A DNA stretch of 64,000 nucleotides from Thalassospira sp. MCCC 1A03138 (GTDB lineage: Bacteria > Pseudomonadota > Alphaproteobacteria > Rhodospirillales > Thalassospiraceae), in the NCBI RefSeq assembly GCF_002115785.1, contig NZ_JFJY01000002.1:186001-250000 (forward strand). Reading direction: 5' to 3'. This document shows, piece by piece, positions 23,438 through 25,296 of the stretch. The notes under the pieces are model-generated. The model saw nothing but the letters and a program-made list of their open reading frames with translations. It had not been told where the DNA came from and did not search any database. Numbering within the stretch: the stretch's first letter is position 1; every line of letters begins with the position of its first letter. The position numbers and the translations under genes are program-made.

Positions 23438-23455
23438 TTAAACGAAATAGATTCG

Positions 23456-23490
23456 ATAAATCACCGGGGAGAATTAACCCGGTGATTTAT
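23456..23490. terminator. Terminator of rpe, overlapping the 3' end of the divergent-strand insert gene
   Basis: Perfect 13-bp arms (23456-23468 and 23478-23490) with a 9-nt loop, AT at the ends and GC in the middle, so it can act both ways. Its right arm covers the stop codon of the minus-strand winged-helix gene, so the insert joins the core genome inside this element. Confidence 0.75.
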
Positions 23491-23864
23491 TTATCCTCGA
23501 AACCCAGCTGCCAATATTGACCAGTTTTTCTGATCATTTTTTTCTCGGACATCCGAGAAACATAGCTTCTTAGCGTATTGTAATTAACACCAATTCCTTG
23601 CGATTTAAGCTCGCTGAATATTTCTGAAGTTCGTGCGCCCTTTTTGGTCCTCTTCAGCAACTCAAGGATAGCAGTCTCAAAAAATAATCGATCTACATTC
23701 TTTAGATTGACCTGTTGATCTTTATTCTGAGCACTATGTCTAGCGCGGCGCCTCAGAATAAGGTTATTCAGCGCATTTATTTCAGCACGAATATCTCTCA
23801 CACGCGCCTCCAAATGGCGCTTTTCTTCTTCCAACTTCTCAATTATGGGATCTTTATCGGTCAT
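23487..23864 (-). CDS. Small coiled-coil plus winged-helix-like protein, unrecognised
   Basis: A 125-aa protein that I do not recognise by family. Residues 5-45 are a strongly charged amphipathic helix (EKLEEEKRHLEARVRDIRAE) that should dimerise as a coiled coil. Residues 60-122 read as a winged helix: ILELLKRTKKGARTSEIF, then YNTLRSYVSRMSEKKMI as recognition helix and wing. A DNA-binding regulator is the likeliest role. Codon and base use are clearly more AT-rich than the neighbours. It is divergent from the Abi_2 gene across a region with a 54-bp palindrome, and the GCAACATA core of that palindrome recurs just upstream of this start (23879-23886). Confidence 0.75.
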   Translation of the reverse strand: MTDKDPIIEKLEEEKRHLEARVRDIRAEINALNNLILRRRARHSAQNKDQQVNLKNVDRLFFETAILELLKRTKKGARTSEIFSELKSQGIGVNYNTLRSYVSRMSEKKMIRKTGQYWQLGFEDK

Positions 23865-23958
23865 ACTCTCATGTTATCGCAACATATTGCATTTTTCGAT
23901 AAAAATTTTCCCTTTAAAATCAGATCACTAAATTTGCTCTTCCAACTTGATTTTAACT

Positions 23959-24012
23959 TACAAACGTGCTATGCAACATAGTTTATAAACTATGTTGCAT
24001 AGCACGTTTGTA
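23959..24012. repeat. 54-bp perfect palindrome, no spacer
   Basis: Two 27-base arms (23959-23985 and 23986-24012) are exact reverse complements with no intervening base. It lies between the divergent winged-helix and Abi_2 genes. Each arm contains ATGCAACATAG. A third GCAACATA lies at 23879-23886 in front of the winged-helix gene. It could be an operator for a dimeric regulator, a cruciform-forming element, or the stem of a structured RNA. Confidence 0.97.
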
Positions 24013-24116
24013 TTTACTCAACATTTTTGCTTGAAGATTTATCTCTGCTGACTCATATTTCCAATCAATCAGAACCCCCACGCCTCTCGACGAAGCGCAC
24101 CAGGGGGTTTATTTTT
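23986..24116 (+). ncRNA. Candidate short structured RNA upstream of the Abi_2 gene
   Basis: The 125 bp between the palindrome and the Abi_2 ATG hold no gene but end in a terminator-like hairpin, as a small RNA gene would. AbiF-type Abi_2 toxins are reported to be paired with an upstream non-coding RNA antitoxin, which is why the region is flagged. The 5' end is unknown: no clear promoter could be assigned, and the RNA might include the whole palindrome (from 23959) or only what follows it. Confidence 0.3.
24073..24116 (+). terminator. Terminator-like hairpin just upstream of the Abi_2 start
   Basis: AACCCCC (24073-24079) pairs with GGGGGTT (24103-24109). An inner CGC/GCG pairing (24081-24083 with 24095-24097) is possible. 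A T-rich tract (24108-24116) follows. It ends about 20 bp before the Abi_2 ATG at 24138, so a transcript from upstream would mostly stop before the coding region and only read-through would express it. Confidence 0.7.
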
Positions 24117-24137
24117 GCACGATACAAAGAGCTCATC

Positions 24138-25022
24138 ATGGCTCGTAGAACATTCAAGAAGCCTGCAAAATCAACAACTGAGCTAATTAGTTTTCTAAGG
24201 AATAAAGGCCTTATCATTGATGATGAGCCATATGCGGCTCACTGCCTTCAATGCGTTGGTTATTACAGACTAAAAATATACATGCGCCCCTTAGAAACCG
24301 GGAAACAGTTTAATGATGGGGTCCGCTTTGAAGACATCGTTGAGCTATATGACTTTGATCGTGAACTACGACTCCTATGTCTCGATGCAATTGAACGCAT
24401 TGAAGTCGCACTAAGGGCTCACATAATAAATATAATGGGCGCTCACGGAGGCCCCCACTTCTACTATGATGCCGGGTATTTTCATTCAGCCGAAGCGGTA
24501 GCCAAAGTTAAGAAACTTGGTGCAGAAGGAAAGCACTTATCTATCACACATTACAAGAATCAGTACTCAACCCCTGACCTTCCGCCTATCTGGTGTCTTA
24601 CAGAAGCATCAACCTTCGGCACGATATCAATGATCTACGCAGATTTAAAATTGCAATACAGGAAAGAGATAGCTAGGGAATTTTCTCTTTCAGAAAAATT
24701 GTGCGTTTCGTGGTTTAAGTCTTTATCAACATTGAGAAACTTTTGCGCTCACCATTGGCGACTTTGGAACGCTGAACTCATTGTTAACAAGCCTAGACAG
24801 GCCCGAGCTTATTTAGATGACTTGCAACCAAATGGTTCATGCTATGCGCGACTTGCAATTATGCAAATTATGCTCAAAAAGATAGATCATGATGGCCGAT
24901 ACCGTTGGTCACAACGCCTTGAAAAACTGATAGATTCAAGACCTCGGACGGTTTTCATATCGGCCATAGGCTTTCCCGAAGACTGGAAAGATCGTCCTTT
25001 ATGGAACGGCCAACTAGGTTAA
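24138..25022 (+). CDS. Abi_2 family (AbiD/AbiF-type) abortive-infection protein with HEPN motif
   Basis: A 294-aa Abi_2-like protein. The start MARRTFKKPAKSTTELISFL, the VGYYRLKIYMRPLE segment near residue 47 and DFDRELRLLCLDAIERIEVALR near 80-100 are family features. The RNase-type HEPN motif R-x4-H appears in LRNFCAHHWRLWN near residue 202. Family members abort phage infection, and AbiF-type members act as RNA-regulated toxins related to Cas13 ancestry (recalled from literature). The ATG at 24138 is preferred to a TTG at 24027 that would run through the terminator-like hairpin. The gene is AT-rich, unlike its neighbours, which suggests acquisition. It ends 13 bp from the convergent SDHAF4-like gene. 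Confidence 0.88.
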   Translation: MARRTFKKPAKSTTELISFLRNKGLIIDDEPYAAHCLQCVGYYRLKIYMRPLETGKQFNDGVRFEDIVELYDFDRELRLLCLDAIERIEVALRAHIINIMGAHGGPHFYYDAGYFHSAEAVAKVKKLGAEGKHLSITHYKNQYSTPDLPPIWCLTEASTFGTISMIYADLKLQYRKEIAREFSLSEKLCVSWFKSLSTLRNFCAHHWRLWNAELIVNKPRQARAYLDDLQPNGSCYARLAIMQIMLKKIDHDGRYRWSQRLEKLIDSRPRTVFISAIGFPEDWKDRPLWNGQLG

Positions 25023-25035
25023 ACTCACAAATAAA

Positions 25036-25296
25036 CTAGAAATCGATGCAACGCCCCTTGTTTTCCCAATCACCGAAGCGGGTCGGCTCGGGGCCTTTGG
25101 GCCCGCCGATTTCGCGCTGTTTTGCAGCAGCTTCCTTGGCGGCCTTGGCTTCAGCCAGCGCATTGATTGCATCCTGTGACAGAACAGGCGCCATGTCTGC
25201 ACCGGCAATGGCTTCATTCTTTTCTTCCGAGGTTTTCGGTTCGGCCTTTTCTTTAGGCACCTCGTGAATGACGGTCTCGCGGAACTTTCCGGCCAT
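25036..25296 (-). CDS. DUF1674/SDHAF4-like succinate dehydrogenase assembly protein
   Basis: An 86-aa protein. Its C-terminus (GPEPTRFGDWENKGRCIDF) is the DUF1674 signature shared with eukaryotic SDHAF4, which binds flavinylated SdhA during complex II assembly. The N-terminal half is charged and Ala-rich, probably disordered. The ATG at 25296 follows GGAG at 7 nt. No sdh genes are in the window. It marks the core-genome side of the right edge of the AT-rich insert. Confidence 0.85.
   Translation of the reverse strand: MAGKFRETVIHEVPKEKAEPKTSEEKNEAIAGADMAPVLSQDAINALAEAKAAKEAAAKQREIGGPKGPEPTRFGDWENKGRCIDF

Follow-up and report, generated by a model that had tools for sequence, protein, structure and literature searches.

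A 54-bp perfect palindrome beside an abiF RNA–AbiF toxin module in Thalassospira: a possible local operator of probably recent template-switch origin

Divergently encoded winged-helix regulators, such as those of the BlaI/MecI, PadR and MarR types, use operator palindromes, and perfect palindromes of great length are prone to instability. Two further lines of published work bear on the locus described here. In C. difficile, the abiF RNA neutralises the toxin AbiF by binding it directly, a single promoter lies upstream of RNA and toxin alike, and the ancestry of the Cas13 nucleases has been attributed to AbiF modules (PMC12373285). Template switching can both generate inverted repeats and make them perfect (PMC7202029; PMC8794818), and has been documented in E. 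coli (PMC7202029) as well as in RNA genes (PMC8794818).

An abiF RNA–toxin module and its divergent neighbour

We analysed a 64-kb stretch of the Thalassospira genome (the window), in which a divergent intergenic region has a predicted DNA-binding protein on its left, an abiF promoter and RNA on its right, and the palindrome in between. The features of the locus are as follows.

23456–23490, no strand: hairpin with 13-bp arms between rpe and the winged-helix gene
23487–23864, minus strand: orphan 125-aa protein, N-terminal helix and winged-helix fold (from the predicted fold)
23879–23886, no strand: GCAACATA, a word common to the palindrome and the left spacer
23959–24012, no strand: perfect palindrome of 54 bp, 27-bp arms, spacer 0, single copy in the genome
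23969–23981, no strand: 13-bp dyad CTATG-CAA-CATAG in the left arm
23990–24002, no strand: mirror dyad CTATG-TTG-CATAG in the right arm
24031–24059, plus strand: probable promoter TTGAAG-17-CATATT of the abiF RNA and toxin
24074–24109, plus strand: abiF RNA (RF03085), RNA antitoxin motif, 38.5 bits against a gathering score of 37
24138–25022, plus strand: AbiF/AbiD (Abi_2) HEPN ribonuclease toxin, 294 aa (PF07751, E 1.5e-49; PADLOC AbiD, E 1.3e-70)

Judged by its sequence, the unit at 24074–25022 is a known kind of RNA toxin–antitoxin module, an identity that was missing from the first-pass annotation. As in RCd22-AbiFCd of C. difficile (PMC12373285), the RNA motif lies directly 5′ of the toxin gene and the promoter 5′ of the RNA, the toxin carries a HEPN RxxxxH motif (here RNFCAH, residues 200–205, with R200 and H205 invariant), and a hairpin followed by a T-rich stretch precedes the toxin start; the 3′ end of the RNA is 28 nt from the toxin ATG. 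Unlike RCd22, which has two abiF motifs, the Thalassospira locus has a single one, and it adds the divergent winged-helix gene and the 54-bp palindrome, neither of which was seen in the relatives examined.

The promoter was assigned by comparison among loci. In six of ten abiF/Abi loci (the window, L004, L085, L086, L088 and L091), the best hexamer pair had a 17-bp spacer and lay 18–19 nt before the abiF stem (CACGCC); in L092 the promoter–stem distance was equal and the spacer 16 bp, and in L090 the 17-bp match was weak. The match at the window alone was not significant (P 0.47), and it is the positional agreement among loci that points to 24031–24059 as the probable σ70-type promoter of the abiF RNA and the toxin.

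The divergent gene encodes a protein that the first-pass annotation had labelled winged-helix, and this label agrees with the predicted fold, at moderate confidence, and with weak profile matches. The model (single-sequence prediction, mean pLDDT 73) has a long helix at residues 6–46 and a C-terminal winged-helix fold at residues 59–120; the Pfam matches, GapR (E 0.0013) and Penicillinase_R (E 0.0015), both fell under the cut-off. The GapR likeness is a weak one to its DNA-binding domain, covering residues 8–31 of the first helix. A structure search with the model returned generic winged-helix folds only, none below E 0.001, and PDB sequence matches to pentatricopeptide proteins and StbA were set aside as helix-repeat or weak. 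Neither a homologue of the protein nor a second locus carrying its gene was detectable in 28 congeners, 59 relatives, 385 genomes of the class, plasmids or phages, and the matches in IMG/VR were weak and confined to the first helix. The divergent genes beside the Halomonas and Legionella abiF loci had no Pfam match, and the Halomonas neighbour did not align to the Thalassospira protein. On the rpe side of the gene, the hairpin at 23456–23490 is likely to be a two-way terminator.

The genes at 23487–25022 occupy a variable slot between rpe and a conserved minus-strand gene ending at 25036. Their GC content of 41%, against 55% for the window, fits horizontal gain. The rpe slot (window 23438–25033) is a hotspot of variable content in the genus: in congeners the slot is short (G010) or holds a large oxidoreductase-like gene (770 aa), a HipA-like gene (440 aa) or a short PIN-like gene, these family names being taken from a reading of the sequences.

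A single-copy palindrome private to the locus

The palindrome had been described as two exact 27-nt arms that meet without a spacer, and this was confirmed: the letters of 23959–24012, TACAAACGTGCTATGCAACATAGTTTATAAACTATGTTGCATAGCACGTTTGTA, are identical to their own reverse complement. Across 464 kb, made up of the window and a further 400 kb from its contig, its arms form the longest inverted repeat. The runners-up with a loop of ≤ 8 had 17- and 16-nt arms; among palindromes without a spacer, the second longest had 16-nt arms. Chance would yield 27-bp arms (loop 0–8) about 4e-11 times per 64 kb, or about 2e-9 times at AT-rich composition.

The palindrome occurs once in the 4.56-Mb genome, and no further copy was found in 28 congeners, 385 class genomes, plasmids, phages or IMG/VR. 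A mobile repeat was rejected for this lack of a second copy anywhere searched. The same result makes it very improbable that the palindrome is the remnant of a small MITE-like palindromic element with TA ends, a reading to which the AT-rich island lends itself and which the outer TA dinucleotides would suit, although these are automatic for any palindrome that starts with TA.

The palindrome is equally absent from the AbiF modules that we compared. No comparable palindrome was present at nine other abiF-RNA/Abi loci or in 58 unique abiF-RNA contexts from virus contigs, where the best upstream inverted-repeat score ranged from 4 to 10, compared with 27 in the window. The toxin's nearest relative comes from Fodinicurvata fenggangensis (L004), is 58% identical and has a nearly identical abiF RNA; the palindrome and the winged-helix gene are both missing from this locus, and the end of a polA-like gene (named from a reading of the sequence) lies directly 5′ of its abiF RNA. 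Likewise, the abiF RNA accompanies eight plasmid relatives (Abi proteins 37–43% identical), none of them with a palindrome of this kind. Its absence from all of the compared loci indicates that the palindrome is private to the Thalassospira locus rather than part of the module, and rules it out as a feature of the AbiF family; it has no bearing on the membership of the toxin and the RNA in their families. The conserved promoter position also places it outside the conserved unit, with ∼20 bp between its right end and the −35 hexamer of the probable abiF promoter. The palindrome is thus most likely a local DNA element and no part of the AbiF antitoxin RNA.

These observations bear on a role as RNA. 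The palindrome folds strongly (−38.7 kcal/mol as RNA, compared with −10.3 for shuffled sequences), and a scan reported terminator-like sites, as would be expected of a long hairpin that belongs to an extended antitoxin RNA, forms a leader or terminates transcription. Such a hairpin is nevertheless very improbable, given that the conserved abiF promoter position lies downstream of the palindrome and that no relative has it. A proper T tract is absent after the palindrome on either strand (GTATTTACTC follows on the plus strand), and the genes on either side are oriented outwards, so that neither reads into it; an intrinsic terminator was rejected on these grounds. Its only resemblance to an RNA family was to miRNA precursors in Rfam, under the gathering score and of the kind that any long hairpin yields, and we assign it no such identity.

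As single-stranded DNA, the palindrome also folds strongly (−27.9 kcal/mol), which would suit a cruciform whose supercoiling-dependent formation switches the divergent promoters, with the GapR-like N-terminal helix of the neighbouring protein as a possible sensor. We consider this highly doubtful: the GapR match at residues 8–31 is below the cut-off and may reflect coiled-coil bias, and comparative support for a cruciform is absent.

Operator or scar

We tentatively favour, at somewhat less than even confidence, the reading that the palindrome is an operator of local reach, bound by the winged-helix protein and built by a recent template-switch inverted duplication. Perfect arms of 27 bp exceed the need of any operator, so that the symmetry is best explained by such a duplication; it argues for a mutational origin over selection for function. 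One recent replication template switch would have duplicated a 27-nt stretch in inverted orientation and, with it, the 13-bp dyad, leaving two mirror copies on one face of the helix, with centres at 23975 and 23996, that is 21 bp or two helical turns apart. The winged-helix protein would then bind these dyads, tuning its own gene, the toxin module or both. With a transcription start at ∼24066, the dyads would lie near −91 and −70, where a bound protein could fit upstream of RNA polymerase.

The palindrome resembles the products of quasipalindrome-to-palindrome conversion in E. coli (PMC7202029) in that its inverted repeat is perfect and private to a single locus; unlike in those cases, no ancestral sequence is available for it, and the switch is one that we infer. 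In its divergent intergenic position adjoining a small winged-helix protein, it is like the BlaI/MecI, PadR and MarR operators, from which it differs in that its perfect symmetry is far longer and the predicted regulator has no homologues.

The sequence words bear on the operator in both directions. The first-pass annotation had noted that a core, ATGCAACATAG, occurs in each arm and that GCAACATA recurs ahead of the winged-helix gene. The core is indeed in both arms, as the symmetry of the palindrome makes inevitable. The recurrence of GCAACATA, 14 bp ahead of the start codon of the winged-helix gene, is also real, yet weak as a signal: in 4% of dinucleotide shuffles, the palindrome and the 94-bp left spacer had a word of at least 8 nt in common (p ∼0.04). 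This recurrence and the paired dyads would permit a local operator. So would the position of this single-copy outlier between a predicted DNA-binding protein and the abiF promoter, and its absence from every relative of the toxin module compared, among them the Fodinicurvata locus, from which the winged-helix gene is missing too. Against an operator stand the moderate confidence of the single-sequence winged-helix model, the failure to find a second locus with the gene in which conservation could be compared, the chance levels of the shared word and of the arm dyad (a 13-bp dyad arises in a shuffled arm with a probability of 0.16, and is weak by itself) and the lack of a dyad regulon: a genome-wide 13-bp scan allowing one mismatch gave no excess, with 5 places for the dyad and 10 for the reversed control.

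A functionless neutral scar is, in our view, almost as likely. The same template-switch inverted duplication would then have struck an AT-rich, horizontally acquired intergenic region and left nothing of use. The palindrome is private to the locus, its perfect arms imply youth and not slow selection, and the island is AT-rich (41% versus 55% GC) and sits within the variable rpe hotspot, all of which agrees with a scar. Against a scar stand the regulatory location beside a predicted DNA-binding protein and the word shared with the start region of that gene, and the instability of long perfect palindromes would favour the loss of a useless one. If it is merely a scar, the palindrome would be a clean natural case of an inverted repeat that is both perfect and very young.

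The operator reading extends to a broader proposal, which we regard as rather unlikely: that this abiF RNA-antitoxin module has gained a second, DNA-level control, made up of the orphan protein, with its coiled coil and winged helix, and of mirror operators two turns apart, lying upstream of the promoter of the antitoxin RNA. A transcriptional regulator on an AbiF module, if true, would mean that such modules can gain control at the DNA level.

Orphan abiF RNAs in virus contigs

Virus contigs from IMG/VR (L123–L218) carried abiF RNAs without an AbiF toxin, which we rate as more interesting than the palindrome. Examples are L130:5518–5554, L138:9053–9089, L149:10851–10887 and L161:1516–1552, and all six of the virus-contig RNAs tested scored above the Rfam gathering score. 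An Abi_2 protein was found near the RNA in 1 of 96 neighbourhoods and in 1 of 50 whole virus records, some of which may be fragments. One abiF sRNA of a cyanophage has been reported previously (PMC9964418). The orphan phage RNAs are candidate decoy antitoxins against AbiF. In one group of phage contigs (L130, L131, L135, L152, L164, L172, L182 and L194), the orphan abiF RNA has a TTGACA-type promoter and is followed immediately by a tRNA-Asn(GTT) gene; if AbiF cleaves tRNA, the two may form a paired counter-defence. Among the plasmid-borne loci, that of Halomonas sp. KO116 (L088:1974–2896) has its Abi gene as two overlapping frames beside an intact abiF RNA, apparently a broken toxin whose antitoxin RNA has been retained.
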